25,016 nucleotides of DNA from a virus. Shown here piece after piece: positions 2,369 to 21,083 of the stretch (position 1 is its first letter; each line of letters begins with the position of its first letter). Both the position numbers and the translations under genes were made by a program. The notes beneath the pieces are model-generated. The model saw nothing but the letters and a program-made list of their open reading frames with translations, was not told where the DNA came from and ran no database searches. The stretch is taken from IMG/VR virus record IMGVR_UViG_3300034198_014533, positions 1 to 25,016 of that record; one strand, 5' to 3'.

Positions 2369-3001
2369 ATGACTGAAGCCATAATAGTAAGTATCACAGC
2401 AATAATTACTGCCGCTCTAACAAGTGTAATAGGACCAATAGTAGTTAATTACTTTACTGAACGAAAAAAGAATAAAAAAGATCTAATTAAAGAATCATTA
2501 GAAACCAATATGTTGGTTACTAATAAATTAGAAACAATATTAAACGAACATGGCGCCGACCGTGTTTGGATATCTCAATTTCATAATGGTGGCCATTTCT
2601 ACCCAACAGGTAAATCAATACAGAAATTTAGCATGGGTTATGAAATAGTTAGCCCCGGCACAACCTCAATACAAGCCAGTTTCCAAAACATTCCTATTAG
2701 TTTATTTTCTAGATCTATGAATCATATTCTAGAAAATGATGTTATATCTATATCTGATTATAAAGATGAAAGTATAGCAACATATGGTTTAAAATATACC
2801 GCTAGTGAGATGGGTTGTAAAAGTGCATATATGTTTGCATTAAAAACAATAGATAACAAATTTATAGGTGTAGTAGGTATTGATTTTGTAAAACGTAAAA
2901 GAACATTAGATGATGAAGAAATAAATCATTTAAAAAACGAAACAGCATTAATATGTGGTGTACTAACTAATCTTCTAGAATCCAAAAAACAACATGATTA
3001 A
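2369..3001 (+). CDS. Membrane-anchored GAF-like domain protein
   Basis: A 210-aa protein. Residues about 3-28 form one hydrophobic helix (IIVSITAIITAALTSVIGPI), followed by a positively charged ERKKNKK patch, so the bulk should face the cytoplasm with the N-terminus anchored in the inner membrane. The soluble part (about 60-205) contains VWISQFHNGG, a long variable loop, and a final strand pair FIGVVGIDFV followed by a helix. This is the general layout of GAF/PAS-type ligand-sensing domains, which otherwise occur in signalling proteins. It has no kinase, cyclase or DNA-binding output domain. It sits between the zinc-finger gene and the first tagged gene, whose ATGATTAA supplies this gene's stop codon. 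Function is unknown; membrane sensing or superinfection control is speculative. Confidence 0.6.
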   Translation: MTEAIIVSITAIITAALTSVIGPIVVNYFTERKKNKKDLIKESLETNMLVTNKLETILNEHGADRVWISQFHNGGHFYPTGKSIQKFSMGYEIVSPGTTSIQASFQNIPISLFSRSMNHILENDVISISDYKDESIATYGLKYTASEMGCKSAYMFALKTIDNKFIGVVGIDFVKRKRTLDDEEINHLKNETALICGVLTNLLESKKQHD

Positions 3002-3287
3002 ACTAACAGATATACTACAAGAAATAGAAAAAGGAGTAGATGTTTTTAAAGATAACCTAGAAGACCATAGCAATATGCATTATAGAGACCATGTTAAAGC
3101 CATCATTGAGCACGCTGAAAAAGCACTAGCAACCAGTGAACCTAAAATAATGCATAGTAACATAGCAGAAATTTTAAAACATGCTGAATCCGCTCATAAT
3201 AAAATATATAATAACGGTGATACAAGTGGTGTTCATAGTGGAGGAGGTCATGTAGCTGGATTTCACGCAAATAATGCTGATTTTTAA
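2994..3287 (+). CDS. Small tagged protein (IKLTDILQE N-terminus), putative internal virion protein
   Basis: A 97-aa protein that opens with MIKLTDILQE, the first of six closely related N-termini in this window ending in [LI]xE. Residues after the tag are helical and histidine-rich (several H at about 24-70), ending in a flexible Gly/His/Asn tail (HSGGGHVAGFHANN). No known domain. The ATG overlaps the stop of the GAF-like gene (ATGATTAA), so translation is probably coupled. By analogy with T4 internal proteins the tag may direct packaging into the prohead and be removed after E10. That is inference; the tag itself is seen directly. Confidence 0.65.
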   Translation: MIKLTDILQEIEKGVDVFKDNLEDHSNMHYRDHVKAIIEHAEKALATSEPKIMHSNIAEILKHAESAHNKIYNNGDTSGVHSGGGHVAGFHANNADF

Positions 3288-3289
3288 TT

Positions 3290-3535
3290 ATGATTAAACT
3301 AACAGACATATTAACAGAAAATTATGGTGGTGAAGGTGAAATGATTTTACCTCCTAATCATAAAGCAGGTTTAAAAGTACCTAAAGGTGGCTCATGTTGT
3401 GCCAATTGCAAATGGTGGAATAAAGAAAATCAAGTATGTAATAACACATACTATGCTGATTGGGCAGGTACAAATAAAATACCTTATGCTGCTGATGAAT
3501 ATTGTACAAACTGGTGGGAACCCATATCAAAATGA
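3290..3535 (+). CDS. Small tagged Cys-rich protein resembling high-potential iron-sulfur proteins
   Basis: An 81-aa protein starting MIKLTDILTE and followed by VPKGGSCCANCKWW (C36, C37, C40), C50 and a final DEYCTNWWEP with C72. The pattern C-x2-C ... C ... C next to aromatic residues, with PYAADEYC before the last cysteine, resembles the HiPIP (4Fe-4S) fold, though spacing differs from classical HiPIPs (C-x2-C-x9-C-x21-C here). It could equally be a structural zinc protein. It starts two bases after the previous stop, and its stop overlaps the next tagged start (AATGA). An electron-transfer protein carrying a packaging-type tag would be unusual. Confidence 0.6.
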   Translation: MIKLTDILTENYGGEGEMILPPNHKAGLKVPKGGSCCANCKWWNKENQVCNNTYYADWAGTNKIPYAADEYCTNWWEPISK

Positions 3536-3888
3536 TTAGACTAACCGACATACTATTAGAAATGCTCCTAGAAGACAGATGTAAACGCATTGCCGATCGC
3601 AAATACGATAAACCATCCGCTTATAAATCAGGAGCTATTGTTAGATGTCGTAAAGGACATATTTGGAAAGACTTAAAAGAAGATGAATCATTACATAAAT
3701 GGTTCAAACGCTCAGGTACACCTGGTAAAGAAGGTGGATGGGTTGATTGCAATACTTGTAGAGACGGTAAATGTAAATCATGTGGTAGAAAAGCAGGAGA
3801 AAAACGTTCAAAATACCCTTCATGCAGACCAACACCTGCACAATGTAAACAACCAGGTAAAGGTAAAAAATGGGGAAAAACAAAATAG
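3532..3888 (+). CDS. Small tagged basic Cys-rich protein, putative internal virion protein
   Basis: I place the start at the ATG at 3532, which overlaps the previous stop as ATGA, rather than an upstream in-frame codon at 3502. From there the protein begins MIRLTDILLE, matching the tag of its two upstream neighbours. About 118 aa. After the tag come a Lys/Arg-rich region, the pair CNTC...CKSC (probable zinc knuckle) and GEKRSKYPSCRPTPAQC, ending in a very basic PGKGKKWGKTK tail. High positive charge plus zinc knuckles suggests DNA contact, fitting a protein packaged with the genome. Function unknown; the WVDCNTC and YPSCRPTPAQC segments look like a conserved phage/virus family I cannot name with certainty. 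Confidence 0.65.
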   Translation: MIRLTDILLEMLLEDRCKRIADRKYDKPSAYKSGAIVRCRKGHIWKDLKEDESLHKWFKRSGTPGKEGGWVDCNTCRDGKCKSCGRKAGEKRSKYPSCRPTPAQCKQPGKGKKWGKTK

Positions 3889-3928
3889 GTTTTCAATATT
3901 ATTTAATTAAATAAAAATAAGATGGACG

Positions 3929-4159
3929 GTGACAGTAAAAGGGAAAAAAATAGATCTAGAGATATGGATGCATATTTGTCTAATGGTGGCGATGTTCTTC
4001 AACCCTTTTGGATTCGACGCTTTATTCGCTATGGTGATGAGATTGACAGGTTCCTTTTGGATTACGGACTTGGTTTTCTATTGCCTTTCGGGACTTTTCT
4101 TTGGTTTATATTTCTTATTGCGTAAACGTTTTAAAAAAATAAGTAAAAATGAAGAATAA
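3929..4159 (+). CDS. Small two-helix membrane protein
   Basis: A 76-aa protein, chosen over an overlapping ORF that starts at ATG 3922 in another frame because this frame gives clean biology. It has two hydrophobic segments (IWMHICLMVAMFFNPFGF and about 42-66), an NPFG turn between them and a basic tail (RKRFKK). The likely start is GTG 3929, with ATG 3968 (residue 14) as an alternative. Its stop lies inside the next gene (overlap 4149-4159). A holin or another small inner-membrane protein is possible, but nothing in the sequence proves lysis function, and its distance from the spanin-like pair argues for caution. Confidence 0.55.
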   Translation: MTVKGKKIDLEIWMHICLMVAMFFNPFGFDALFAMVMRLTGSFWITDLVFYCLSGLFFGLYFLLRKRFKKISKNEE

Positions 4160-4763
4160 TGATTGTGGCTGTAATGGCCCTAAATTAGCACTTAGAGAAG
4201 GATATGAAAATATCTTAATATCTGAAGGATTAAAATATCATATAGTTGAAGGTATTCCCTTATATGAAAACATTTATCGCCCACAAAGCGATAGCTTCCT
4301 TTCTTTATTTGTAGAAGCTAGACAACTATATGAAAATGGTTTATTAGGTCTAACAGAACAAGACTCCTACTATTTTGAAAATAGTGATTTAGGTAAATTT
4401 GGAATTTATGAAGGTATGAAAGTACCATTAGATTACCCTATGTCTTTAGAATATCTAAATGAAGTATTAGAAGAAAAACAAAAAACCAAGAAAAAACACC
4501 CACCATTAAATAAACCACATCGTGGTGGTGCTAAAAAATTCTACGTTTACGTACGTAAACCAGGTGGTGGAATTAAGAAAGTATCATTTGGGCAAGTAGG
4601 TATGTCAGCTAAAATAAATAACCCTGTAGCTCGCCGCGCATTCTCAAAACGCCATAATTGCCCCCAGAAAAAAGACAAAACTAAAGCATCTTATTGGAGC
4701 TGTAGACTTCCTCGTTACAGTTCATTGCTGGGTCTAAAATCGAATTTTAGCGGATATTGGTAA
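4149..4763 (+). CDS. Conserved phage protein with basic His/Cys C-terminal domain
   Basis: A 204-aa protein in two parts. Residues about 1-110 are acidic and contain repeated EG(Y/L/M/I) turns, with a GKFGIYEGMKVPLDYPM segment. Residues about 115-195 are strongly basic: FYVYVRKPGGGIKKVSFG, then ARRAFSKRHNCPQKKDKTKASYWSCRLPRY, with two cysteines and a histidine. This second module looks like a recurring phage domain, perhaps a small metal-binding fold, that I cannot name reliably. The start ATG lies inside the end of the two-TM gene. There is no [LI]xE tag at the very N-terminus, which has CGC near residues 6-8. A head-associated structural role is possible but unproven. Confidence 0.6.
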   Translation: MKNNDCGCNGPKLALREGYENILISEGLKYHIVEGIPLYENIYRPQSDSFLSLFVEARQLYENGLLGLTEQDSYYFENSDLGKFGIYEGMKVPLDYPMSLEYLNEVLEEKQKTKKKHPPLNKPHRGGAKKFYVYVRKPGGGIKKVSFGQVGMSAKINNPVARRAFSKRHNCPQKKDKTKASYWSCRLPRYSSLLGLKSNFSGYW

Positions 4764-4769
4764 ACCCAG

Positions 4770-4779
4770 TATATTTATC
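4770..4779 (+). promoter_or_regulatory. Candidate late promoter motif (TATATTTATC)
   Basis: A variant of the recurrent motif in a 27-base gap, ending 11 bases before the ATG at 4791. Confidence 0.35.
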
Positions 4780-4790
4780 AATATTAATAC

Positions 4791-5405
4791 ATGAAAATAA
4801 ATTACTTAAAAAAATATATTAAAGAAGAGCTAGACCAAATATTAGAAATATTTGATAAATCCTTACCCAACATAGAAAAAATATCCCCCACTAGCTATGT
4901 CGTAGGGAATGGGGATAATATCGAAGCCAAATATAATTTTAGAAGAACTAACATAAATGATGATAAATGGGACATATCATGGAGTTTTACAGATAACAAT
5001 AAAAACACCACACCTGAAGCATGGAAACAAATAACAGCTACTTCATATAAAATATTATCCGATTTTATTAACACCAAACATCCTCAATCTATTGAAATAT
5101 CAGGTGATACAGATTCTAAAACCAATTTGTATAAATCGCATTCATTTATAAACAAACTACAAAACCTACTCAATAACCAATATATTATTGATAATTCATT
5201 ACCATACTCAGTGGTGATAAATAAGATTAACCATATTGCCCAGCCCAATATTACTAAACGTATGAATAATATGAATGAATCATACTTGCAATCCCGTAGG
5301 TATTGGGAAGAGGGTAATGTATATTCAAAAAGCAAAATAGAACAAACCAGCGCCATTAAAAAAATAGTAAAACGTATTATAATAGAACATCTATATAACA
5401 TATAA
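4791..5405 (+). CDS. Tagged phage protein of unknown function
   Basis: A 204-aa protein. The first 20 residues (MKINYLKKYIKEELDQILEI) form an amphipathic basic-then-acidic helix with two possible [LI]xE sites (IKE12, ILE19), in line with the looser tags of this window. The body is a mixed alpha/beta Asn/Lys/Ile-rich sequence with WDISWSFTDN and ISGDTDSKTNLYKSHSF segments that I cannot assign to a family. The C-terminus ends in a basic helix (IKKIVKRIIIEHLYNI). It starts after a late-promoter-like motif and ends one base into the next ATG (TAATG at 5403-5407). Possibly another packaged protein. Confidence 0.6.
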   Translation: MKINYLKKYIKEELDQILEIFDKSLPNIEKISPTSYVVGNGDNIEAKYNFRRTNINDDKWDISWSFTDNNKNTTPEAWKQITATSYKILSDFINTKHPQSIEISGDTDSKTNLYKSHSFINKLQNLLNNQYIIDNSLPYSVVINKINHIAQPNITKRMNNMNESYLQSRRYWEEGNVYSKSKIEQTSAIKKIVKRIIIEHLYNI

Positions 5406-5665: not shown

Positions 5666-5675
5666 ATATTTATAC
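5664..5675 (+). promoter_or_regulatory. Candidate late promoter motif (AAATATTTATAC)
   Basis: A recurrent-motif copy directly after the cupin-like gene, ending 17 bases before the ATG at 5693. Confidence 0.45.
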
Positions 5676-5692
5676 ATATAAAATAAACCAAA

Positions 5693-6187
5693 ATGAAAGT
5701 ATCACAATTCCGCGAATTAATAAAAGAAGCCATAGCTGACCGTTTAAAAATGATAGACGAAGCCGGTGATAAAGCAGCAATCCAAGCTAAAATTAACAAA
5801 ATAGATGAAGATATTAAAGAAGCACATAATATAAAATCAGGCATTCCTACTAATCTTTCACATTTTGTTACTCCTGAAAAAGTAAGTGATATGATGGATG
5901 AAATAGAAGCATCTATTACTGAACTTGAAAGCAAGAAAAAAGAACTTGAAGACCAAATGTCACAAATGGACAAACCAGTTAAAGAAGGTAAGAAAAAACC
6001 ATCAGCTGGTATGACTAAAAAAGAAAAATCAACATTGTCTAAAAAAGCACATGCTGGTAAAGACATTGGTAAAAAAGGTAAAGGCTTTGAAAAAGTAGCT
6101 AGTACCGCTGCAAAACAATATGGTTCAAAAGAAGCTGGTGAACGTGTAGCAGCCGCTGCAATGTGGAAACAAGCCGCTAAAAAATAA
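5693..6187 (+). CDS. Tagged basic coiled-coil protein, putative internal head protein
   Basis: A 164-aa protein. Residues 1-13 ([13 protein letters not shown]) give an LIKE|A site very like the T4 internal-protein tag, whose cleavage also follows an [LI]xE and precedes Ala. Residues about 25-95 are a heptad-like coiled coil ([25 protein letters not shown]). The C-terminal 60 residues are Lys/Ala/Gly-rich and very basic ([19 protein letters not shown] ... [17 protein letters not shown]), resembling a common phage C-terminal module with histone-like composition. A DNA-associated packaged protein fits both ends. It begins a new block after a late-type motif. Confidence in the gene is high; in function, moderate. 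Confidence 0.7.
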
Positions 6188-6192
6188 TAACA

Positions 6193-6570
6193 ATGATCAA
6201 ACTATCAGAACTATTAGACCCGGTGGGTAAAGAAGATGATGATATTAACAACGATGGAAAAGTAGATAAAACAGATAAGTATCTTCTTAATCGTCGCAAA
6301 ACAATATCACAAAATATAGATGAAAATATGAAATGTGATACATGTGGGGGTGAACATCCCAATGAACATCACCATGACCATGAAGCATCTATGGCTAAAG
6401 GTGAACTACGTGACATGATAAAAAACGGAGCACAATTATATAACATGATCCAACCCGAACAAAACTTACCAGGTTGGGTATCAGCATATATAACACTTGC
6501 TTCTGATTATATGCATAGTGTAGTTGAGTATATGACTGAAAAGTCTATTGAAAAAAATAACTATGAATAA
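6193..6570 (+). CDS. Tagged EF-hand/dockerin-like and His-rich protein
   Basis: A 125-aa protein starting MIKLSELLD, a variant of the IKLTDIL tag in which the cleavage glutamate is replaced by D9. A calcium-binding loop follows immediately at 17-28: D17-x-N19-x-D21-G-x-V-D25-x-x-D28, matching the EF-hand/dockerin spacing 1,3,5,9,12. Next is [17 protein letters not shown], two Cys plus a His cluster that could bind zinc or another transition metal. The rest is helical. It lies five bases after the coiled-coil gene, and its last codons contain the ATG of the next gene. The combination of two metal sites with a packaging-type tag is unusual. Confidence 0.65.
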
Positions 6571-7126
6571 ACAACTTATATTAGAAAAATATATAAAAGT
6601 TGCTGTACGTAAAGCTCTTAAAGAGCAAGAACAACAGCAACAAAAAGCAGAAAAAGCGATGTATCTAATATATCGCTTCCCTGGCCTTAAAAAAGTAATA
6701 GAGGACTTAATGTCTCCTGCTTTTGGTCGTTTTGTTAGTGACATAAAAATAACAGCCCCTAAACCAACAACCTTCAGCATCAGCTTAATCAATGGTGAAG
6801 AATTTAGTGTGACATATGTTGGTAGAGATAATTTTAGAGTAAAAATAGCAGGTAGAAAATATGATCCTAGTAATATAGGTGAACTAGAAAGAGCATCACA
6901 AGCTATAGCAGATGTATTAGCATTAAATTATGCTCCTTCTACTACTAAAGCAGAAGACCAAACAACAGAACAAGCTGCTGCTCCTTCTGGACCACCCGCT
7001 GGTGAATTAGCAGCCGATTTAACAGCAGCTGGTGAAACAACTACACCTCCACCAACAGAAACACCAGCTGAAACACCACCAATTGAAACACCTGAAGAAA
7101 AATCTAAAGAAACACCAACTGCTTAA
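6563..7126 (+). CDS. Tagged protein with Pro/Thr/Glu-rich tail
   Basis: I choose ATG 6563, inside the previous gene's last codons, over an upstream TTG at 6548; the N-terminus then reads [21 protein letters not shown], with [LI]xE sites at LILE and ALKE. About 187 aa. The middle (about 35-125) is a compact alpha/beta stretch with [17 protein letters not shown] and [13 protein letters not shown]. The last 60 residues are a low-complexity Pro/Thr/Glu/Ala tail with repeated TPPPTE/ETPP units, likely disordered. No family recognised. It fits the same tagged set as its neighbours; the first 30 nt overlap suggests translational coupling. Confidence 0.6.
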
Positions 7127-7137
7127 AATATATAATT

Positions 7138-7362: not shown

Positions 7363-7381
7363 GTAAGTTTTTTTCCTCAAA

Positions 7382-8182: not shown

Positions 8183-8187
8183 TTAAA

Positions 8188-8256
8188 ATGACACAATTAA
8201 TCAAAGAAGCCAAACGCTTACAAAAACTAGCTGGTATTAGCGAAATAAAAATAAAC
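8188..8256 (+). repeat. 69-nt direct repeat, copy 1 (tag-coding block)
   Basis: The first 69 bases of the gene at 8188 are identical to those of the gene at 8643-8711 and encode the shared N-terminus through ISEIKIN. Identity ends abruptly and the proteins then differ completely. Confidence 0.9.
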
Positions 8257-8642: not shown

Positions 8643-8711
8643 ATGACACAATTAATCAAAGAAGCCAAACGCTTACAAAAACTAGCTGGTATTAGCGAAA
8701 TAAAAATAAAC
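8643..8711 (+). repeat. 69-nt direct repeat, copy 2 (tag-coding block)
   Basis: Base-for-base the same as 8188-8256. The lack of even synonymous differences points to recent duplication or gene conversion. Confidence 0.9.
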
Positions 8712-9290: not shown

Positions 9291-9697
9291 CCGAACTAGA
9301 TAATATTCTATATAAACTAATCGAATTCCAACACTGCCACCCAAACATATACATAGGTGGCAGCATTTCATTAATATTACAGAAAGCTATACCTTATCGC
9401 ACCCCTAAAGATGTCGATATAATATCACCGGATAAAACACACATATATGACATATTTAATATAGAATCAGAAAATAAACACCCTCTTATTAGGCAATATA
9501 GATATAATAATTTAAAATTTGAATTATTTATCAACCCTAAAGCAGAATATATAGAATATAAATATAATAATAATATATTAAAAATATCGCCTATATATGA
9601 AGTATTTGAATGGAAACATAAGAGACAAAATATTTATAATGGAAAACATGCAGTTGATATAAATTATTATGAAACCACAATTAATCAAGGAAGCTAA
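9287..9697 (+). CDS. Minimal nucleotidyltransferase-like protein
   Basis: A 136-aa protein with GGS (24-26) on a helix start, then R38-x-P-K-D42-V-D44, the hG[GS]...DxD signature of the polymerase-beta-type nucleotidyltransferase fold, and a later FELFINP strand where a third acidic residue (E or D) is normally found. Such small enzymes transfer NMPs to proteins, RNA or small molecules; toxin-antitoxin MNT/AbiE-type proteins share the fold. The partner cannot be told from sequence. There is no tag at its own start. Its last residues (ETTINQGS) are the tag-coding DNA of the next gene read in another frame. Confidence 0.65.
   Translation: MTELDNILYKLIEFQHCHPNIYIGGSISLILQKAIPYRTPKDVDIISPDKTHIYDIFNIESENKHPLIRQYRYNNLKFELFINPKAEYIEYKYNNNILKISPIYEVFEWKHKRQNIYNGKHAVDINYYETTINQGS
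9628..9640 (+). promoter_or_regulatory. Candidate late promoter motif inside the nucleotidyltransferase gene (AAATATTTATAAT)
   Basis: A recurrent-motif copy 28 bases before the tagged ATG at 9669, inside coding sequence. Support is weaker than for the intergenic copies. Confidence 0.3.
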
Positions 9698-10100
9698 ACG
9701 CTTACAAAAACTAGCTGGTATCTTAACAGAACAAGATGAAACTCCTGATCTAACACCAATAGATCCGGATCCTTCCCAAATTCAACAACAAAAATCAGAA
9801 CCTGCTGATACTCCTGAAACACCCGCTGGTGTTATAAGTAAAGATGAAGCTAAACAATTAATTAAAGCTACTAAAGGTAAATTCTTTACAGTAACTTTTA
9901 TTAAAAAAGATGGTAACCCGCGCGTAATGAATGCTAAATTAGGTGTAAAAAAATATCTAAAAGGTGGTGAACTCCCATATGATCCTGAAGAAAAAGGATT
10001 AATACCTGTATATGATATGCAAAAAGGAGCATATAGATCAGTAAATGTAAGTACTATCACTAATTTAAAAATCGGTAATAAAGAATATCAAGTACAATGA
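9669..10100 (+). CDS. Tagged protein (LIKEAKRLQKLAGI type), beta-rich body
   Basis: A 143-aa protein starting MKPQLIKEAKRLQKLAGI then LTE, with LIKE and ILTE cut sites. The coding DNA 9676-9721 differs from the 8192-8237 copy by only two bases in 46, so it belongs to the same tag family. A Pro/Glu/Asp-rich linker (about 24-55) leads to a small domain starting SKDEAKQLIKATKGKFFTVTFIKKDG, with short strands and a final NLKIGNKEYQVQ. The domain is unknown; KFFTVTFIKKDGNPRVMNAKLGVKK looks like a small beta-barrel seen in phage proteins. The start overlaps the nucleotidyltransferase gene by 29 bases, and the stop overlaps the next ATG (ATGA). Confidence 0.65.
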   Translation: MKPQLIKEAKRLQKLAGILTEQDETPDLTPIDPDPSQIQQQKSEPADTPETPAGVISKDEAKQLIKATKGKFFTVTFIKKDGNPRVMNAKLGVKKYLKGGELPYDPEEKGLIPVYDMQKGAYRSVNVSTITNLKIGNKEYQVQ

Positions 10101-10567
10101 TAAAACTAACAGACATACTAAACGAAATTAAAATAAATCAACCGGGAAAAATAGAAAATGATAAAGATTTATTCAACTTTCTAAAAGGAAATATCCGAAA
10201 ATTTGCAGAACATGAATTAACAAGCCGTGATGACGTATACAGCATAGTAATAAATGAATTTATCGAATCACCCCCTAATATATTTACAGACGATGAGTTA
10301 AATGAAATAGAAGACAATACTTGGGAAGAATTAGATAATACTCTAAAAACAAAATTAAAACCATACTTAATAGATATCCTGGTAAACATAGGATTAACAT
10401 TTTTTCAATACGACGACAATACCAACAAAATTACTAGTGCAGTTTCATGGGATACAGAAATAGGACTAATATACTCATATTCAGACGAAGCAGATCCAGG
10501 TAGTTATACGTGGGATGAAGATGAGTTTCTAGGAAAAAAATTTTATTCATTATCGTTTGACATATAA
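10097..10567 (+). CDS. Tagged protein (IKLTDILNE) with hybrid linker, unknown body
   Basis: A 156-aa protein. The first 10 residues (MIKLTDILNE) are of the IKLTDIL type, but IKINQP follows at once, the linker that elsewhere follows the LIKEAKRLQKLAGI tag (gene at 8188). The body is acidic and helical (LFNFLKGNIRKFAEHELTSRDD, DELNEIEDNTWEELDN), ending in Tyr/Asp-rich strands. In general build it resembles the 8188 protein (acidic, NEE/DEL-E segment near residue 60), so the two may be distant homologues carrying different tags. Start and previous stop overlap as ATGA. Confidence 0.6.
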   Translation: MIKLTDILNEIKINQPGKIENDKDLFNFLKGNIRKFAEHELTSRDDVYSIVINEFIESPPNIFTDDELNEIEDNTWEELDNTLKTKLKPYLIDILVNIGLTFFQYDDNTNKITSAVSWDTEIGLIYSYSDEADPGSYTWDEDEFLGKKFYSLSFDI

Positions 10568-10575: not shown

Positions 10576-11403
10576 ATGATAAAACTAACAGATATATTAA
10601 CTGAATTAATATTAAAAGAAGAAGAAAAATACTATCATGGTACTTTTTATTATTTCAAATGTTTTCGCGCAGCAGGGATAGGTGGGGGGGCGGGATCTCA
10701 AATATTTGGTTGGGGGATATATTTTGGTAAAGATTTTAATGTAGCAAAATCATATTCTGCTATGAGGAAAGATATAGCAAAATCATTAACTCTTTTTCAA
10801 GGAAAAAATCCATCTGAAATGGCATTTGAATATGATAACATAGTATTCGAAAGAATCCCATCAAAATTAAAAACTAAAGAAGAACTTATTGAATATGCTA
10901 AAGAAGTAATTGAACTTCTAGAAGAAGATGGAGACCCAGAAGGGTTAATTCCTGAATATAAAAGATTTATAGAAATAATTAATGAATTAGATATAAAAAA
11001 TGAAGGGATGAGTTATGTTTATGAAGTTTTATTACATAAAGGTAAATCACCTGATCAATATGAGTATTTAGATTGGGATTTACAATCAACCCCTCAAAGT
11101 CAAGTAGATAAAATAAATAAACAAGCTCAAAAAGAAGGATGGAAAGATTTTTATGTATCTACTGAAATGAGTCCTGGAGAAATATATAAATATATAAACT
11201 CATACATTATTAACAATAAAGTCAATAAGTATAGAATAAGACAAGAACACCAAATTTCATTCCCAGCAGGAAAAGATACATCTTTATTTTTATTAGCAGC
11301 AGGAATAGATGGAAATACTCATGGTAATGGTGGTGTAAGGATAATATTTGATGAAAAAGCCATAGAAATAATTAATGTTTGTAAAATGAATTATAAAAAA
11401 TGA
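10576..11403 (+). CDS. ADP-ribosyltransferase-like protein with packaging-type tag (Alt-like)
   Basis: A 275-aa protein. It opens MIKLTDILTE, then KYYHGTFYYF (H21), then GWGIYFGKDFNVAKSYS (Y49, Y60), the HGT ... G-x-GIYF ... A-x-x-Y signature of PARP/diphtheria-toxin-type ADP-ribosyltransferases, in which H and Y hold NAD+. A long helical insertion (about 75-190) follows, and the C-terminus has LLAAGIDGNTHGNGG and IIFDEKAIEIINV, the usual final strand pair. The catalytic glutamate normally found just before the last VxFD strand is not obvious (GGVRIIFD), so activity is uncertain. T4 Alt, a capsid-packaged ADP-ribosyltransferase that modifies host RNA polymerase after injection, has the same architecture: tag plus ART. 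The stop overlaps the next ATG. Confidence 0.7.
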   Translation: MIKLTDILTELILKEEEKYYHGTFYYFKCFRAAGIGGGAGSQIFGWGIYFGKDFNVAKSYSAMRKDIAKSLTLFQGKNPSEMAFEYDNIVFERIPSKLKTKEELIEYAKEVIELLEEDGDPEGLIPEYKRFIEIINELDIKNEGMSYVYEVLLHKGKSPDQYEYLDWDLQSTPQSQVDKINKQAQKEGWKDFYVSTEMSPGEIYKYINSYIINNKVNKYRIRQEHQISFPAGKDTSLFLLAAGIDGNTHGNGGVRIIFDEKAIEIINVCKMNYKK

Positions 11404-13358
11404 TAATCAATCGCCCTCTAAAACACATATTATTAGAATACAGCGAAAAAGTCTTTAAAACCAAAATAGAGCAATGGGATAAAGAAACTAAAGGTACTGT
11501 TCAAGATGCTGAAAATACATTTAGAAATGCTATATTAAATTTTGAAAAAATCAAAGATAGAATTTTTAAAAGATTAACAGACAATGTTAATCCTCTTAGA
11601 AATATGCCCACTAAATTTATAGCAAGTGACAAAAATCCTAAACCCAAAGACCCCAGAGATATAATGAATTATACATGGAACGACATGGAAAGGTTGTTTG
11701 ATGCTTGGGGCCCTATAGAGAAAGAAAAAAAAGGTAGTGAATTCAATACGGTTGAAGATGCTCACCTACTAAAAATAAACAACGTACCTTTAACATACTC
11801 AGGAAATGGAATATTTGTTTATGAAGGATCTTCTAAAGAACATTGTATAAAATTAACTTACGCTTTTAAATATAAAGATAAAAATGAAATTAAACCATAT
11901 AATTTTTGTATAGGACGAGTAGAATCTGGTGCTAATAGATATACTAAATATAGATTTGGTGGAGAACTATCAACTGGAGCCCTATATAGATCATTTTATT
12001 TCGTAGCAGACTCAACCCAATCTCCAGGATTAAAAATGAACGACAAAGGTGCTATGGAGTTTGAAAATTGGTATCATTTTTTTGTAATACATGTTTTTGA
12101 AAATGGCCAATTTGGTGTAACTGATGCCGTTAATGTGTATGGTCACGGTCATGAAATTGATGGGAATGGAAAAGGAATAAGTTGGGAAGACATAGGAAAT
12201 TTTATGATCAAACATGGAAAAGAAAGTGGTCGACAAGCTTGGGATAAAATAAAAAACCATAAAGATATTTTTAAATATATTAGTCCTTCTGAAGAAGAAG
12301 AAGAAGAAAACATAGCTGTTGGAGGAAGATTAAATTTTGATACCTTTGAAAAACTAAACTATAATTTAAAAGCATCATATATAAACAAAAGAGCAGAAGA
12401 CCCTAATTTCTTCACCCCCCAGATGTTTAGAATGTTAAATAAAGAATTAAAAAATTTAGCTCTAAACGCCGGATACCAACCATCATTAAATGATTTGAAA
12501 GATCAAAATAATGAAATTAGCAACTCTCTAGCCAGATTATATGCTAAAAAACAATTTAGAAAAAATGTAACAAGTAGAAATGAATCAAAATATGTTACTA
12601 ATCTTATTCCTTTACCTTTTATAAAATATTTAGACGAACCAAACAAAGAAATATATTTAGAAACATTTGATGATAATCTTACATTTGATTATATAGAAAA
12701 ATATTTCGGGGAAGAAACAGCTAAAAAATACGTTAATGAACAAACTAAAAAATTAGATTATTTACCTCAATCTGCCTTTAAGTATATTAATGATCCTAAA
12801 ATAAAAAAACTATATTCTATTTATAGTAAATTATTCAAAAATTGGGTTTTTTCAAAAGATACAAATATAAGTGAAAAAGAGCTTGAACAAAAAACATCAA
12901 TGCCTTTACAACAAATTACCCCATACCCTATAATATACGATGATTGGAAAGAATTAACTACTGAGGATAAAAAAATAATTTTAGAGTTAACAAATACATC
13001 AAATTCAAACAAAAAATATTTAACTCTTAATTATGCTGTACCATTTTTTATTAAAGATGAAAATAAAACTTATGCTTTATTACCTTTAGATGAAAATAAA
13101 GAAAAATGGGTATTAGTTGACATAAATACTAATAATGTAATACTTGAATTAGATGGAGATATATCAACATTAAATGATAATTTATTAATTTATGGGTATC
13201 CTTCCTATGGTGATGGTAATTATCAAAGAATATATTCTTTATCTGATTTAAAAACAAAAGATAAACCTGTTTCTTTAAAAGAATCAATATATGATAAATT
13301 AACACATATCGATTGGGATAAACGTAGATTATTACATAGAGCCGGTATAATAAAATAA
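11400..13358 (+). CDS. Large tagged phage protein of unknown function
   Basis: A 652-aa protein, the largest complete gene here. The N-terminus (MIINRPLKHILLE then Y) again ends in an [LI]xE site. Residues about 100-275 form a region rich in aromatic residues (HCIKLTYAFKYKDK, RSFYFVADSTQSPG, ENWYHFFVIHVFENGQFGV, GHGHEIDGNGKGISWEDIG) that looks like a folded alpha/beta domain. An acidic break EEEEEEN sits near 298-304. The second half is helical, then beta-rich, ending in DKRRLLHRAGIIK, which echoes the KRLQKLAGI motif found in the N-terminal tags. No family with a known function recognised. It follows the ART-like gene with an ATGA overlap, so the two may be co-made and co-packaged. Confidence 0.65.
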   Translation: MIINRPLKHILLEYSEKVFKTKIEQWDKETKGTVQDAENTFRNAILNFEKIKDRIFKRLTDNVNPLRNMPTKFIASDKNPKPKDPRDIMNYTWNDMERLFDAWGPIEKEKKGSEFNTVEDAHLLKINNVPLTYSGNGIFVYEGSSKEHCIKLTYAFKYKDKNEIKPYNFCIGRVESGANRYTKYRFGGELSTGALYRSFYFVADSTQSPGLKMNDKGAMEFENWYHFFVIHVFENGQFGVTDAVNVYGHGHEIDGNGKGISWEDIGNFMIKHGKESGRQAWDKIKNHKDIFKYISPSEEEEEENIAVGGRLNFDTFEKLNYNLKASYINKRAEDPNFFTPQMFRMLNKELKNLALNAGYQPSLNDLKDQNNEISNSLARLYAKKQFRKNVTSRNESKYVTNLIPLPFIKYLDEPNKEIYLETFDDNLTFDYIEKYFGEETAKKYVNEQTKKLDYLPQSAFKYINDPKIKKLYSIYSKLFKNWVFSKDTNISEKELEQKTSMPLQQITPYPIIYDDWKELTTEDKKIILELTNTSNSNKKYLTLNYAVPFFIKDENKTYALLPLDENKEKWVLVDINTNNVILELDGDISTLNDNLLIYGYPSYGDGNYQRIYSLSDLKTKDKPVSLKESIYDKLTHIDWDKRRLLHRAGIIK

Positions 13359-13369: not shown

Positions 13370-13603
13370 ATGATAAACCCAACAGACACAATAACAGTAG
13401 ACGTACCTTTATTTATACGTTTATTAGAATACGCTCGTGAAGATGCCAAAACAGACATGGATCTTCATAAAGTAACAGAAAATGTATTATCGTTAAGCCA
13501 AAATGGCAAAACATTAACCATGGATCAATATGATTCTATTATGGGAAGCGCCGAAGCTATAGACGAGATGAAAAAACTACAGCGATTAGCTAATATTGTC
13601 TAA
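13370..13603 (+). CDS. Small conserved-looking phage protein of unknown function
   Basis: A 77-aa protein with an N-terminal VDVPLFIRLLEYAREDAKTDMDLH stretch, typical of a small helical bundle, and a C-terminus MKKLQRLANIV that resembles the KRLQKLAGI segment of the type-B tags. No domain of known function. It has no N-terminal tag. It starts 11 bases after the 652-aa gene and is followed by a motif-containing gap. Confidence 0.55.
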   Translation: MINPTDTITVDVPLFIRLLEYAREDAKTDMDLHKVTENVLSLSQNGKTLTMDQYDSIMGSAEAIDEMKKLQRLANIV

Positions 13604-13634: not shown

Positions 13635-14054
13635 ATGAATACAAAATTAATACAGCGAATTATAAAAGAAGTCATAGAAGAAATGTCTCTTCCGGAAATG
13701 GCTCGTTTTGCCGGTACCGGGGGTGCATATAAGGTAACAGATAAAGGTAAAGATATACTTAAACAAATTAAAGCAGAAGGTAACATACCTAGTGATAGTG
13801 GACTTAATGCTAGTAAAGTAGCAGTATTAGTATGGGTATATAAAGCAGAAAATGAAGGAAAACGCGTACAAAAAATGGATTATGCTCGTGAAAAAGGAGT
13901 ATTACAACCATCTGTAAACCCACTATTCAACGATTTAGAAATGAAAGGATTTATATCTAAAGAAGGATACATGCCCCCAACACCTAAAAAAGAACCAGGA
14001 ACTACCAGACCACAACCAGATATAAAATCTATGTTTGATGACATAGATATATAA
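13635..14054 (+). CDS. Tagged winged-helix DNA-binding protein
   Basis: A 139-aa protein. MNTKLIQRIIKEVIEEM gives a basic amphipathic start with IIKE and VIEE sites. The centre (about 45-112) reads as a winged helix: helix ASKVAVLVWVYKAENEG, helix MDYAREKGVLQPSVNPLFNDLEMKGFIS with the typical recognition-helix/wing ending (L..LE.KGFIS), similar to MarR/replication-type wHTH domains. A Pro-rich acidic tail follows (PKKEPGTTRPQPD ... SMFDDIDI). A DNA-binding protein with a packaging-type tag could be injected to act on host or phage promoters at once, but this is inference. The late-promoter-like motif directly upstream suggests late synthesis. Confidence 0.65.
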   Translation: MNTKLIQRIIKEVIEEMSLPEMARFAGTGGAYKVTDKGKDILKQIKAEGNIPSDSGLNASKVAVLVWVYKAENEGKRVQKMDYAREKGVLQPSVNPLFNDLEMKGFISKEGYMPPTPKKEPGTTRPQPDIKSMFDDIDI

Positions 14055-16718: not shown

Positions 16719-16733
16719 TCAAAATAACAGACA

Positions 16734-17090
16734 ATGAATATAGAGCAATTACGCGAAGCTATACGAAAAATAATCAAACAAGAATTATCTGAAAACCAAC
16801 CAGCCCCTAGTAAACCTAAACCAGGAACAGAACCTACTATACACCCTGGCAAACCTGGTGAAAAGCCAGGTCCTCGCCGCCCTCTTATCAAACCAACAAT
16901 TCAACCTAAGCCTAAAGCCGGATCTAAAACAATGAAAGAAAACGAGATGATTGATAAAATCACTGATCGTTTTAAAAAGTCTAAAATGAACGAAGCTGCT
17001 GAAACAGGATGGCAAAAAGGGTATGAAGAAGGATATAAAGAAGGATATAAAGATGCTACATCTAATAAAACTAATAAATTTAAAAAATAA
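16734..17090 (+). CDS. Tagged Pro/Lys-rich protein, putative internal virion protein
   Basis: A 118-aa protein. MNIEQLREAIRKIIKQELSE provides a basic amphipathic tag with possible sites after AIRK/KQE or ELSE. Residues about 21-70 are low complexity, rich in Pro, Lys and Gly (PSKPKPGTEPTIHPGKPGEK). The end has ENEMIDKITDRFKKSKMNEAA and a short GY-E-E repeat (KGYEEGYKEGYKD). No fold recognised. Basic and disordered, it fits a packaged DNA-contacting protein. The stop shares one base with the next ATG. Confidence 0.6.
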   Translation: MNIEQLREAIRKIIKQELSENQPAPSKPKPGTEPTIHPGKPGEKPGPRRPLIKPTIQPKPKAGSKTMKENEMIDKITDRFKKSKMNEAAETGWQKGYEEGYKEGYKDATSNKTNKFKK

Positions 17091-18103
17091 TGGCACAATT
17101 ACTAGAAGTAGACTACGAAAAAATATTCAGCCCTAAAACAATGGCTCTCCTGAAAAATAAATCAGGTGAATCTCTAAAACAAATGTTAGGTGATAAAAAT
17201 CTAAGGACTGTTATGAAACGCTCTACAGAATTATTACCTAAAATAATAGAGGCTGAAGAAGGTTATCGTGATGAATTAGAAATGATAGCAACCCAAATAG
17301 TAACAGAAGCATACCCTATTATAGATTACGCTAACATAAAAATAGATGCTAAAATAGTAAAAATGGGTGAAATAGATGTTCCTATGGGAGGAAACGATAA
17401 TGAAGAAGATCCTTTATCTCTTCAATCTAATGAAGAGTTAAAAGCCAAACGTCGTATAATAAACGGTATTTCTCAAGGAGCATCAATTAGAGGAGCATTC
17501 GCCTTCCTCATCTTCAGAGAACATTTAGACGATATTAGTCCTGAATTAATAGATAAATATAATGAAATATTAAAGCTTGCTTTTGGTATATATGATAATG
17601 AAGAGGCTATTGCTATGTTATTAGCTATGCTTGCTCAACAAAAGAAAATAGAAGGTGGTGAGAGTGATATGGAATATAATGAAGAAGATGAGCAGTTTGT
17701 AATTAAGGCTCGTGCATTGTGTTTCCCTATGTTAGTTCATGAAATAGTAAAAGGATTATATGAGATATTAGGCTCCCAAGGATTTACAACAATCCAGGGA
17801 CCTGAAGCTCAAGATGTAATTACAAAAGTAGATGTATTAACTAGTGAACCTCGTGACTTACAATATGGTAAGTTTATATATGATGCTTTAAATAAATTAT
17901 ATATAGAAAGTAATATAGATGATGCTCGTGTACGTGAATTATTCTTTACCGAAGTATATAAATTAGAGGATAATGAATTTATACCATTTATAGAAAATGC
18001 TATAAACAATAAATTAACACCTGATCAAAAGAAATGGGCTACTGATGCTATGAAGGATATAGCTAGTGATTTATCTAAAGATGATCTTCCATTTAATGTT
18101 TAA
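17090..18103 (+). CDS. Phage protein of unknown function, predicted helical
   Basis: A 337-aa, mostly helical, acidic protein. A central block (about 121-150: AKRRIINGISQGASIRGAFAFLIFREHLDDIS) and a later FPMLVHEIVKGLYEILGSQG are the most distinctive parts. No motif for an enzyme, no membrane segment and no N-terminal [LI]xE tag. Its location among head-region genes upstream of terminase and portal makes a virion structural role plausible, but I do not recognise it. It overlaps the previous stop by one base and ends just before a late-promoter-like motif. Confidence 0.6.
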   Translation: MAQLLEVDYEKIFSPKTMALLKNKSGESLKQMLGDKNLRTVMKRSTELLPKIIEAEEGYRDELEMIATQIVTEAYPIIDYANIKIDAKIVKMGEIDVPMGGNDNEEDPLSLQSNEELKAKRRIINGISQGASIRGAFAFLIFREHLDDISPELIDKYNEILKLAFGIYDNEEAIAMLLAMLAQQKKIEGGESDMEYNEEDEQFVIKARALCFPMLVHEIVKGLYEILGSQGFTTIQGPEAQDVITKVDVLTSEPRDLQYGKFIYDALNKLYIESNIDDARVRELFFTEVYKLEDNEFIPFIENAINNKLTPDQKKWATDAMKDIASDLSKDDLPFNV

Positions 18104-18114
18104 TATATTTATTG
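18102..18114 (+). promoter_or_regulatory. Candidate late promoter motif (AATATATTTATTG)
   Basis: A recurrent-motif variant, starting in the previous stop codon and ending 12 bases before the GTG start of the HNH gene. Confidence 0.4.
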
Positions 18115-18126
18115 TAAATATATAAT

Positions 18127-18819
18127 GTGAAGATATGTAATAAATGTAAGCAAGAAAAACTATTTAAATATTTCTCAATAAAGCGTGCTTCAAAGGATGG
18201 TTATGGAAATACATGCAAACAGTGTGTTAAAGAATATAATAAAACATATGATTTTAAATCATACAATTTGGAAAATAAAGATAGAAGGTCAAAACAGGCT
18301 TCCCAATATTATCAAAAGAATAAAGAACATATTTTAAATAATTCTAAAACTTATTTTGACAATCACAAAGAAGAACACAGAAGCAGAAATAAAGATTGGT
18401 ATAATAAAAATAAAGAACACCACCAAACCAAAATTAAAATATACATACAAAAAAGACTAAAAGAAGACCCATTATTTAAACTCAAGGAAACCCTCAGAAA
18501 AAGAATGTATGATCTCCTAATAAAAAACAAAATACCTAAAATATATTCCGCCTCTACTTTATTAGGATGCACCACAGAAGAATGTAAACAACATCTTGAA
18601 CAGCAACTTAAACCCGAAATGAATTGGGGAAATCATGGCATCGTTTGGGAAATAGATCATATTATACCCTGCTCATCATTTGATCTAACAAACATAGAAC
18701 AACAAAAACAATGCTTTCATTACACTAACCTACAACCATTATTTAAAACAACAGAAATAGCAAAATCATTTGGATACATAGGAGAGATGGGTAATAGAAA
18801 TAAGCATAATAAGATTTAG
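18127..18819 (+). CDS. HNH homing endonuclease with N-terminal zinc finger
   Basis: A 230-aa protein starting at GTG 18127 (the overlapping ATG at 18125 stops at once). The N-terminus has C4-x-x-C7 and C30-x-x-C33 in a CNKCKQEK...CKQC finger, the usual DNA-binding knob of phage HNH enzymes. The middle is a basic coiled stretch (YQKNKEHILNNSKTYFDNHKEE). The C-terminal catalytic part has WEIDHIIPCSSFDL (D177-H178), CFHYTNLQPLF (N201), matching the H-N-H metal finger that cuts DNA. Likely a free-standing intronless homing gene, the second mobile endonuclease within 2.1 kb. It has its own motif-type promoter. Confidence 0.82.
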   Translation: MKICNKCKQEKLFKYFSIKRASKDGYGNTCKQCVKEYNKTYDFKSYNLENKDRRSKQASQYYQKNKEHILNNSKTYFDNHKEEHRSRNKDWYNKNKEHHQTKIKIYIQKRLKEDPLFKLKETLRKRMYDLLIKNKIPKIYSASTLLGCTTEECKQHLEQQLKPEMNWGNHGIVWEIDHIIPCSSFDLTNIEQQKQCFHYTNLQPLFKTTEIAKSFGYIGEMGNRNKHNKI

Positions 18820-18824
18820 ATTAA

Positions 18825-18856
18825 TTTGATTCTTCAAAAAATTTTTATTACCTTTA
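18825..18856 (+). promoter_or_regulatory. Bacteroidota-like promoter (TTTG-N20-TACCTTTA)
   Basis: TTTG at 18825-18828 and TACCTTTA at 18849-18856, 20 bases apart. The spacer holds CAAAAAATTTTTAT, like the other two sites of this type. The ATG at 18879 lies 22 bases downstream. Confidence 0.5.
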
Positions 18857-18878
18857 TATATAAAATATAAAAATATAA

Positions 18879-19112
18879 ATGGAAACCAAAAAAATTAAAA
18901 CAGCCAACGGTACTATAATCCACTACTGGAATGGTAAAATGCACAACTGGGATGGCCCAGCATATATACCTGAAGGTAAAACAAGTAAAGGTGAATATTA
19001 TCTATTTGGTATAAAACATACCAAAGACGAATGGTTAGAAAAGAAAAGAGACGTAAACGGACAACCTTTCTATAAAACCTCAGTTGGTAAACAAGCAGGA
19101 AGTAGAGTATAA
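18879..19112 (+). CDS. Small protein with MORN-like Gly/Trp/His repeats
   Basis: A 77-aa protein. NGTIIHYWNGKMHNWDGPAYI and GEYYLFGIKHTKDEW look like two MORN-type beta hairpins (x-YWNGK-x-HNWDGPA). A final DVNGQPFYKTSVGK follows. I know of similar small phage proteins but no function. The stop is immediately followed by a terminator hairpin, and a promoter-like site is directly upstream, so it forms a single-gene transcription unit. Confidence 0.55.
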   Translation: METKKIKTANGTIIHYWNGKMHNWDGPAYIPEGKTSKGEYYLFGIKHTKDEWLEKKRDVNGQPFYKTSVGKQAGSRV

Positions 19113-19139
19113 GAGGATTGTCAAAATCCTCTCTTTAAA
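19112..19139 (+). terminator. Rho-independent terminator
   Basis: A perfect eight-pair stem AGAGGATT (19112-19119)/AATCCTCT (19125-19132), five-base loop and a CTTTAAAT tail, starting at the last base of the stop codon. Confidence 0.75.
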
Positions 19140-19154
19140 TTTATATTAAAAGTT

Positions 19155-19403
19155 ATGAAATTTACTCGCATTTTTGATGATCAAGCAGACCAAACAAAAG
19201 AAACATGGACCTACGACACAGATATTTTCTCAAATGGACCTATATCTGTAGAAATAGAATACCCTACTCGATACAAAACACCAGAAGAATTATTACAAGT
19301 ATCTAATAGTAAATTACCCATAACTAAACAACAATGGATAAATCCAGCTAATGGTAAATTAGTAGGATATACACGCGCTAAAGCATTAGGATTAATTAAA
19401 TAG
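19155..19403 (+). CDS. Small phage protein of unknown function
   Basis: An 82-aa protein with no motif I can name. It has an acidic N-terminal half (DDQADQTKETWTYDTDIF), a central YPTRYKTPEELLQVS segment and a C-terminus NPANGKLVGYTRAKALGLIK that could be a small turn-helix. It lies between the terminator at 19112-19139 and the kinase gene (five-base gap), so it is probably transcribed with the kinase. No promoter-like motif as clear as the others precedes it. Confidence 0.5.
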   Translation: MKFTRIFDDQADQTKETWTYDTDIFSNGPISVEIEYPTRYKTPEELLQVSNSKLPITKQQWINPANGKLVGYTRAKALGLIK

Positions 19404-19408
19404 ATAAT

Positions 19409-19930
19409 ATGAAAATAGGATTATGTGGAACTGTATCAGTTGGAAAAACAACATTGGTTCAAGCATTAAAAGAATTAGATCAATTTAAAGATTATGAAAT
19501 AGCCACAGAACGTAGCAAATATTTACGCGATCAAGGTATTTCATTAAATGATGACTCGACAGTAAAAGGTCAATTAGTGTTTGCTGCTGAACGCTCATTA
19601 GAATTAATGAAACCAAACATTATAACTGACAGAACAGTATATGATGTGTGTGCTTTTACATTAAGCGCTCGTTCAATAGAATGGAGTACTAAAGAACATT
19701 TTACTGAAGTATTAATGACCCTATCAAAAGAATATGATGTTATTATCTATGTGTCACCTGAAGGAGTTGATATAGAAGATAACGGAGTTCGTACGATAGA
19801 TCCGGAATATCGCAATAAAATAGATCGTACTATAAAAATGATGTTAGAAGAGTGGCCACCAACTAAATTAATTGAAGTTAAGGGTACCACCGAAGAGCGC
19901 ATAGCTACTATTATTTCTAATTTAAATTAA
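19409..19930 (+). CDS. NadR/AAA_28-like P-loop kinase
   Basis: A 173-aa protein. The Walker A motif is GTVSVGKT (7-14). Further on is NIITDRTVYDVCAFTLSAR, the D-R-[ST]-x-x-D lid region seen in NadR-type and (deoxy)nucleotide kinases. Then come YDVIIYVSPEGVDIEDNGVRTIDP and a C-terminal helix. The fold is of the thymidylate-kinase class, and NadR-type domains phosphorylate nicotinamide riboside. The substrate could be a nucleoside, a nucleoside monophosphate or nicotinamide riboside. Length is normal for the domain alone. It shares a transcription unit with the small gene before it, and has no tag. Confidence 0.75.
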   Translation: MKIGLCGTVSVGKTTLVQALKELDQFKDYEIATERSKYLRDQGISLNDDSTVKGQLVFAAERSLELMKPNIITDRTVYDVCAFTLSARSIEWSTKEHFTEVLMTLSKEYDVIIYVSPEGVDIEDNGVRTIDPEYRNKIDRTIKMMLEEWPPTKLIEVKGTTEERIATIISNLN

Positions 19931-19940
19931 TATTTATTAT
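19929..19940 (+). promoter_or_regulatory. Candidate late promoter motif (AATATTTATTAT)
   Basis: A recurrent-motif copy starting in the kinase stop codon and ending 15 bases before the ATG at 19956. Confidence 0.45.
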
Positions 19941-19955
19941 TATAACATACCAAAT

Positions 19956-21083
19956 ATGAAAAAATCTAAACTAATTGAATTAATTAATGAGGCTTTTAAT
20001 GAAGTATTACAAGAAGATGTAACCGCTGCTGTAACTACTAAATCGGGTACAAAATTTACCAAAGTCAAAAACCCATCTGAACTAAACCCCCTAAAATCAG
20101 ACCCAAATGTTTCTAGCATCGAAACAACAGCAGGCCAGAAATTAAAAGAAACAGAACAATTAGATGAAGCTGCTAAATTTAGTATAGCTGATCAAACAAA
20201 AGCCCAAACACTAATAGACGCAATATCAGGAGCTAATAAAGAAAGAATACAAAAAATAGTAGATGCTATAAATGATTCTCCTGCAGGATCATTAACAGGT
20301 GGTAAAATAGCTGCGGCTTTAGGATTGAATTCACAAGGTCCCATATATAATCTTCTATTAAAAATGGAAGAAGCCGGTATATTATCTACAACAAATAAAA
20401 TATCTTTAAGCAAAAAAACCACACCACCACCACCAACAGCACCTACTACTCCTGGTGAAACACCTGAAGATGAAGATGATGATACAACCGAATTACCATT
20501 AAGTGGTGAAGCCGGTTTATTTCTAGGTGGTGATCAAGATTTAGAAAAGACACTTAGCCCATACTTTGGAGGAGAAGAAACACCTGAAGAAACACCCGAA
20601 GAAACATCAGTATCTACTTCAATACCATCAACACCAGCATCAAAAGCAACTGATTTCTTCCTAGACAATGAAAGATTATTCCAAAGACTAATCAATACAT
20701 ACACAGCATCTAGAATGAAAGTCAGAGAAGAAAAAACACCAGGTGATGTATCATCATCAGATATGTCTTCTGCTGAAAAATCTAGAAAAGAAAGATCAGT
20801 AGCTGGAATAGATGCTATGATAGATCAATTTATAGAAAAAATAAAAGCCGAAGATGAAGATACACAAAAATCAATCATGAATATGCTTGAAAAGAAATTA
20901 GCTAGTGTAAACGCTTCAGGTTTGTATAAAAGAATATCAAATAAAGTAGGACACACATCAGCATCGACAACAACTCCTGAGATAGTACCTGTATCTGAAG
21001 AAGATGAAGATTTTGAAGAAGAAAACAATACATTAGATGAGATAGTGTTAAATCGTTTTAGAAAAATAGCAAATATAAAATAA
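19956..21083 (+). CDS. Tagged winged-helix protein with acidic low-complexity linker
   Basis: A 375-aa protein. MKKSKLIELINEAFNEVLQE gives a basic then acidic amphipathic start with LINE|A and VLQE sites, the former followed by Ala as in T4 internal proteins. At about 80-150 lies a winged-helix-like domain (KERIQKIVDAINDSPAGSLTGG, AAALGLNSQGPIYNLLLKMEEAGILS), the second such domain in the tagged set. A long Thr/Pro/Glu/Asp linker with ETPEE repeats (about 155-225) follows, then a charged helical region and a C-terminus NRFRKIANIK recalling the KRLQKLAGI segment. Unknown function; DNA binding inside or after delivery from the capsid is the inference. It lies between the kinase gene and the spanin-like pair. 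Confidence 0.65.
   Translation: MKKSKLIELINEAFNEVLQEDVTAAVTTKSGTKFTKVKNPSELNPLKSDPNVSSIETTAGQKLKETEQLDEAAKFSIADQTKAQTLIDAISGANKERIQKIVDAINDSPAGSLTGGKIAAALGLNSQGPIYNLLLKMEEAGILSTTNKISLSKKTTPPPPTAPTTPGETPEDEDDDTTELPLSGEAGLFLGGDQDLEKTLSPYFGGEETPEETPEETSVSTSIPSTPASKATDFFLDNERLFQRLINTYTASRMKVREEKTPGDVSSSDMSSAEKSRKERSVAGIDAMIDQFIEKIKAEDEDTQKSIMNMLEKKLASVNASGLYKRISNKVGHTSASTTTPEIVPVSEEDEDFEEENNTLDEIVLNRFRKIANIK

Follow-up and report, generated by a model that had tools for sequence, protein, structure and literature searches.

In phage T4, the internal proteins (IPs) and Alt carry an N-terminal capsid-targeting sequence that is cut by the gp21 protease after (L/I)-x-E. Ten residues of IPIII are enough for packaging, with targeting mapped mainly to residues 4 and 7 and processing to residues 8 and 10, and the authors of this mapping proposed the leader as a means to incorporate various proteins (PMC9026906). 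A further study reports at least 10 Ips in T-even phages (PMC12373910, citing Repoila 1994), and Ip1-3 of T4 block GmrSD enzymes (PMC12373910). Here, we analyse a 25,016-base virus record of IMG/VR (IMGVR_UViG_3300034198_014533), hereafter the window, which is the entire record and whose 3' end cuts the portal gene. Many of its proteins begin with one of a few shared amphipathic peptides, which we call tags. We consider it probable that these tags are a modular and removable prohead-loading system of the same working type as that of T4, in expanded form, where tags copy the ends of the scaffold and the cargo is freed by the protease. Sequence comparisons show the sharing of tags, a boundary at the E, a protease in relatives, a matching site in the capsid protein of relatives, the swapping of tags, and their identity with the ends of the scaffold-position protein; from these we infer the binding, cleavage, packaging, and injection of tagged proteins.

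The source of the window is a bacterial virus related to phage T4. Its terminase large subunit (21855..23435, untagged), which anchors the assignment to the T4 superfamily, shares 54% identity with its counterpart in Flavobacterium phage immuto, the nearest isolate, and is more distant from those of Mel-JY01, RM378, and T4-like cyanophages. The portal protein (23466..25016, cut by the window end, untagged on inspection of its N-terminus) has at least ~600 relatives in IMG/VR, those kept being mostly 81-88% identical. Genes were called in 11 records: the window, immuto, four relatives of 160-172 kb, and five partial relatives. The controls for the tag classifier were T4 (positive) and half of crAss001 (negative). 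Some starts in the IMG/VR relatives may be wrong because their genes were called by a simple script. The tags and C-terminal motifs of the window given here, and its terminase and portal genes, are all on the + strand.

The sequence-only reading of this DNA had listed 16 tagged starts and claimed a family of shared N-terminal tags on unrelated proteins. All 16 are genuine, well-spaced + strand genes, and the family is confirmed: 14 of the 37 called window proteins fall into three tag classes, and two further ones, at 6193 and 11400, are supported as tagged by comparison with relatives (total ~16). Class 1 is MIKLTDILxE, with E at residue 10, and is found at 2994..3023 (MIKLTDILQE, on a 97-amino-acid (aa) protein), 3290..3319 (MIKLTDILTE, on an 81-aa Cys-rich protein), 3532..3561 (MIRLTDILLE, on a 118-aa protein whose immuto homologue has a class-3-like tag), 10097..10126 (MIKLTDILNE), and 10576..10605 (MIKLTDILTE, on a 275-aa weakly ADP-ribosyltransferase-like protein). 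Class 2 (..LIKEAKRLQKLAGI..E, with E near residue 20) is found at 8188..8244 and 8643..8699, both MTQLIKEAKRLQKLAGISE, and at 9669..9731 (MKPQLIKEAKRLQKLAGILTE). Class 3, the loosest, consists of longer amphipathic peptides ending in (L/I)xE: 4791..4847 (MKINYLKKYIKEELDQILE, its ILE site retained in the homologue of relative G006), 5693..5728, 6563..6625 (conserved in eight records), 13635..13682 (MNTKLIQRIIKEVIEE), 16734..16793 (MNIEQLREAIRKIIKQELSE, with LxE, as LNE or LSE, at residue 20 in homologues), and 19956..20015 (MKKSKLIELINEAFNEVLQE, site conserved in homologues). The class-1 and class-2 tags are detected both by the classifier and as DNA repeats, those of class 3 by the classifier. 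As claimed, the bodies are unrelated, since no pair of tagged window bodies matches at E<0.05.

From internal segments of the same window proteins, the expected numbers of matches are 0 for class 1, 0 for class 2, and 0.22 for class 3. The regular expressions defining the classes were written with the data in view; three analyses independent of them, one being the above comparison of bodies, concur. Residues 2-11 agree at 7 or more positions in 11 pairs of N-termini, and each of 1000 draws of internal 10-mers contained 0 such pairs. When a repeat finder was applied to window positions 2900-21200, the two top-ranked direct repeats were the class-2 tag (repeat D1: 75 nucleotides (nt), three copies) and the class-1 tag (repeat D2: 31 nt, five copies), the latter extending from the ATG to just past the GAA codon of the E. 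With the same classifier, 0 of the 44 proteins in the half genome of crAss001 were tagged. A bare [LI]xE whose E falls at residue 8-22, present in 62% of window proteins and ~16% of internal segments, was rejected as a tag criterion: it is not diagnostic because it is also common in T4 (25%) and crAss001 (21%) proteins.

The two additional members depart from the classes. The one at 6193..6219, listed earlier with D in place of E, keeps the targeting half of class 1 and lacks a cleavable E; its homologues have E9, E10, or a class-2 tag. Positions 6220-6300 encode an EF-hand-like stretch that is also seen in numerous phage proteins of otherwise dissimilar sequence, for example at residues 636-672 of a protein of 841 aa in immuto. 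The atypical N-terminal tag at 11400..11438 (MIINRPLKHILLE) lies outside classes 1-3, and its predicted cut site is conserved in relative L261 (ILLE^YSEK and ILQE^YTDK, ^ marking the predicted cut). The HAD, portal, and other genes that had been described as tag-free are indeed untagged in the window, but a HAD nucleotidase is apparently tagged in the relatives immuto and L214; the absence of a tag is therefore not a fixed property of the HAD enzyme, and HAD and similar enzymes were dropped as a clean untagged control. The immuto HAD nucleotidase (L083:9856-9915) has a tag-like N-terminal extension, MKKVMGNLADLLLEE, that is missing from the window homologue.

To delimit class 1, we used 61 proteins beginning MI[KR]Lxx(I/L)(L/I/V), picked by residues 1-8 only, from loci fetched for the portal gene. 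Of these, 51 have the E at residue 10 and a free residue 9, and conservation stops at the E, with no position exceeding 21% beyond it; four of the ten others place the E at residue 9, as LLE. All 61 have L4, I/L7, and L/V/I8, positions at which the selection on residues 1-8 favoured hydrophobics. A conserved E10 next to a free residue 9 is as expected of a protease site at which P1 is required and P2 is free. Across the five class-1 copies of the window that have E10, five of codons 1-8 and 10 are variable, with synonymous changes except for one (K/R), and codon 9 differs freely; selection therefore acts on the peptide. T4 IPII/IPIII (MKTYQEFIAE) and gp24 (MAKINELLRE) have E10 and I/L at residue 8. 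Class 1 has the same length of ten residues, hydrophobic residues at 4 and 7, I/L at 8, and E at 10; the proposed likeness to the T4 capsid-targeting sequence and its (L/I)-x-E rule survives the sequence tests, in length and at the mapped key positions.

The tags are modular and, judging from homologous bodies under different tag classes, swap at the predicted cut site, homology resuming at the E. The 9669 body has a class-2 tag in the window (..ILTE^QDE..LTPIDP) and class-3 tags in G010 and G006 (..LKE^QED..PI.PGPGQEP); the 6193 body has class 1 without E in the window and class 2 in G010 (LLTE^SLDPVGKED); the 4149 family is untagged in the window and has class-1 or class-3 tags in relatives (TLKE^AFFIGEDD, VINE^AFFIGEDD). 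A linker also follows tags of two classes in the window, as IKINQP after the class-1 tag at 10097 and the class-2 tag at 8188, and as IKINKP after the class-2 tag at 8643. In relative L216 (3733-7900), four close-set genes have the same tag-plus-linker MIKLxDILNE-YK(I/V)NxP on different bodies.

The class-2 tag appears to be copied from the tail of the putative scaffold. In 360,095 residues, its core, (R/K)(M/L/W)Q.(L/I/Y)A(G/N)(I/L), lies within 30 residues of an N-terminus in 23 cases and within 20 residues of a C-terminus in the other 18, with no occurrence elsewhere. A scaffold-position gene lies between the protease and capsid genes in nine of nine genomes, and in all nine its acidic product (six aligned), encoded just before the capsid gene in the place of T4 gp22, bears the core at its C-terminus. 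The predicted structure is helical, with low confidence (mean predicted local distance difference test score, pLDDT, of 55), and the tail is a short helix following a disordered stretch. The corresponding protein of Mel-JY01 ends in a similar tail, ERMKKLAGIVK. The C-terminal core is also present in the families to which window genes 19956 and 13370 belong, a feature missed in the sequence-only reading: in the window, the motif ends gene 13370-13603 (KKLQRLANIV, 13571..13600, 77-aa protein) and is weaker at the ends of 11400-13358 (variant RRLLHRAGIIK, 13323..13355, 652-aa protein) and 19956-21083 (NRFRKIANIK, 21051..21080, 375-aa protein, whose homologues end in RMQYYAGIIK or similar). At its other end, the scaffold-position protein has an N-terminal LFKEAIAD to which several class-3 tags correspond (16 N-terminal occurrences including its own, 1 internal) and resembled by the tag at 5693. 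From these likenesses we infer that mimicry of the scaffold ends is the route into proheads for class-2 tags and perhaps for some of class 3.

A gp21-type protease had been predicted just downstream of the portal, beyond the window, and was found in 15 of 16 relatives (PF03420, Peptidase_S77; E=4.8e-31 for the protease of one relative), a few kb downstream of the portal gene. The protease-bearing relatives include two contigs whose portal is 87% identical to that of the window. The protease gene is not in the window record, an absence that is uninformative because the record is this fragment only. The N-termini of the major capsid proteins (MCPs) of relatives are conserved up to NQAKQL[VI][TS]E^A (NQAKQIVSE^A in immuto), and all 11 MCP-type sequences examined in relatives contain [VI][TS]E^A, its counterpart in T4 gp23, matched by eye, being SFLTE^A at residue 65. 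Among the IMG/VR relatives listed, the C-terminus of the protease has a conserved LITE, and gp21 is expected to undergo C-terminal processing in T4 (PMC9026906).

We thus propose that the N-terminal amphipathic peptide of a tagged protein would bind the assembling prohead core or shell, so that the protein becomes enclosed, and that the S77 (gp21-type) prohead protease would then cut after (L/I)-x-E and free the body inside the head. Surviving bodies may be carried with the DNA and delivered to the next host, by analogy with T4 IPs and Alt. In this process, the class-2 tag (KRLQxLAGI..E) would act by copying the tail at the C-terminus of the scaffold protein, and some class-3 tags by their likeness to its N-terminus, the cargo entering by posing as scaffold. 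The sequence-only interpretation is thus supported in part: the likeness to T4-type tags agrees with the protease and capsid site of relatives and with shared, modular tags that end at the E, and the packaged and perhaps injected cargo stands as a prediction.

The repertoire of tagged proteins is large. The 130 tagged proteins of the 11 records form 68 body families, and a scan of IMG/VR for the class-1 pattern gave at least 122 long class-1 open reading frames (ORFs) of at least 51 body families in at least 120 stretches. The classifier tagged 15-20 proteins in each of the four 160-172 kb relatives, 6 in immuto, among them 24569, 25061, 103366, and 111675, and few in the stretches of Mel-JY01 that were read (2 of 81). 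Tagged genes are concentrated within 20 kb of the terminase (p=5e-8, 2e-3, and 4e-6 in three genomes). Recognised tagged bodies in relatives include zeta-toxin/AAA kinase-like proteins, a 5'-nucleotidase, an acid phosphatase, and an S33 hydrolase. In the window, the 10576 body weakly matches ART-PolyVal of Pfam (E=0.0073, 17.5 bits, below the curated cut-off of 31.2); a PDB sequence search retrieved no ADP-ribosyltransferase for it, its AlphaFold model has a pLDDT of 45, and one relative was found. That the cargo exceeds that of T4 in diversity, as had been claimed, fits these counts, with 14-16 tagged genes in 25 kb and 68 body families, against IPI-III and Alt in T4.

The locus resembles that of IPI-III and Alt in having unrelated bodies under one leader and a gp21-type protease (here in relatives), and its weakly ADP-ribosyltransferase-like member recalls Alt. 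It differs in the density of tagged genes, the existence of three tag classes, the many enzyme-like bodies, and the C-terminal counterpart of a tag on the putative scaffold and other proteins; packaging is here predicted from sequence. The hypervariable ip loci of T-even phages are similar in that one leader, by which they were found, precedes many unrelated bodies, whereas the present system belongs to another phage lineage, has far more bodies per lineage, and interchanges tag classes on one body. Kyanoviridae (a cyanophage and a Methylophilales phage) have analogous leaders (MKTFKQF..E, MKKFSEIIE, MINFSKYITE), in Melnitz-1 on DUF6267-like and cytidylyltransferase-like bodies, and DUF6267 is tagged in the IMG/VR set too; however, their leaders are aromatic (F/Y), as in T4, and the few genes read contain no class-2 tag. 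In giant phages of the SPN3US/phiKZ type, the prohead protease also removes N-terminal propeptides of head and internal proteins, but these are mostly much longer and come with cleavage data (PMC10052503). The peptides themselves (MIKLTD, RMQQLAG, LQKLAGI, and others) are unnamed in the searched literature; the letters of the T4 IP leader were likewise absent from the text search, which therefore proves little. Since the one-leader principle is known in T4 and T-even phages, what is new, with respect to the searched literature, lies in how many proteins are tagged, in the additional classes of tag, and in the identity with the putative scaffold.

Could the shared N-termini arise without any role in the head? 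That they reflect chance and composition is barely credible: AT-rich N-termini are often helices of Lys, Leu, Ile, and Glu, in which [LI]xE is common, as its frequency in T4 and crAss001 attests, but the 11 tag-sharing pairs and the complete lack of internal class-2 cores already contradict this for classes 1 and 2, leaving it possible for a few class-3 members. At the DNA level, the tags form the strongest repeats of the stretch, those at 8188 and 8643 being near-identical over 75 nt, and the linker IKINQP after the E travels with two tag classes, which would suit recombination or translation-start cassettes spread by gene conversion and devoid of peptide function; yet class-1 changes outside codon 9 are synonymous but for the one K/R, and tag classes with unrelated DNA replace each other on one body, which makes such cassettes highly improbable. 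Amphipathic N-terminal helices can serve many roles, and the head role is here a prediction, so the tags might dock proteins to the membrane, the replisome, or a host protein instead. We find this very unlikely given that the gene immediately preceding the capsid gene encodes a protein ending in the class-2 core, that the T4 capsid-targeting sequence is matched at mapped positions, and that the E boundary, the protease and capsid site of relatives, and the clustering around the terminase all point to the head.

A further explanation keeps the head and removes the cargo: tagged proteins would assist the prohead core or the scaffold, as gp67/gp68 do in T4, and most of their mass would be degraded or leave the head at maturation, with little or nothing delivered to the host. 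Several tagged genes of relatives do lie between the portal and capsid genes, the place of gp67/68, and many tagged proteins are small, charged, and without assigned function. On the other hand, there are enzyme-like tagged bodies in relatives, one body of the window weakly matches ADP-ribosyltransferases, and the very high turnover of bodies (68 families in 130 proteins) suits cargo better than structural helpers. As a general account we regard it as unlikely, even if part of the set, in particular the proteins whose genes in relatives fall between those for portal and capsid, may be core helpers that are degraded instead of delivered. The loading of proheads by removable tags has its own difficulties. 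The literature found contains no virion proteomics or N-terminal sequencing of any tagged member, and cleavage after the E is deduced from conservation. The window is devoid of protease, scaffold, and capsid genes, all three of which are taken from relatives, and the putative scaffold, of which two members were searched, has no Pfam or PHROG scaffold match, so that "scaffold" denotes position and composition only. Leaders with F/Y, such as those of the IPs of T4 itself, escape the classifier; class 3 in the four long IMG/VR relatives, at 5-9 per genome against 1.1-1.6 expected, likely includes a few false positives; the tag at 6193 lacks the E; and the 49 kb that were read of the distant relative RM378 show no repertoire of tags.

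The product of window positions 53-1261 has a C-terminal metalloprotease-like domain, which in G009 and G011 is fused to a tagged cytidylyltransferase-like domain. Positions 14179-14727 encode a pyrimidine dimer DNA glycosylase-like protein (PF03013, above cut-off), whose true start is, according to homologues, probably 75 bases downstream. The dehydrogenase-like protein at 14712-16019 is a single ORF, whereas in G007 and G010 its C-terminal part alone was matched, as a separate ORF. Homing-endonuclease-like genes (16043-16708 and 18127-18819) are inserted in the block, and their homologues lie elsewhere in several relatives.

There is somewhat less than an even chance that these phages form a T4-superfamily lineage with general cargo delivery, in which dozens of unrelated, fast-exchanging proteins enter the head by means of removable peptides that mimic scaffold ends, a reusable packaging code. 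If true, the proteins that are destined for the particle, and that probably enter the host in early infection, could be read from sequence among the hundreds of unknown genes of widespread environmental phages. This would provide a list of candidate effectors of the first minutes, including kinases, nucleotidases, and the ADP-ribosyltransferase-like protein, as well as anti-defence proteins, and new peptide tags to load foreign proteins into phage heads. It would also give a testable answer to how T4-like proheads recognise their cargo, with a class-2 tag that apparently copies the tail of the scaffold.

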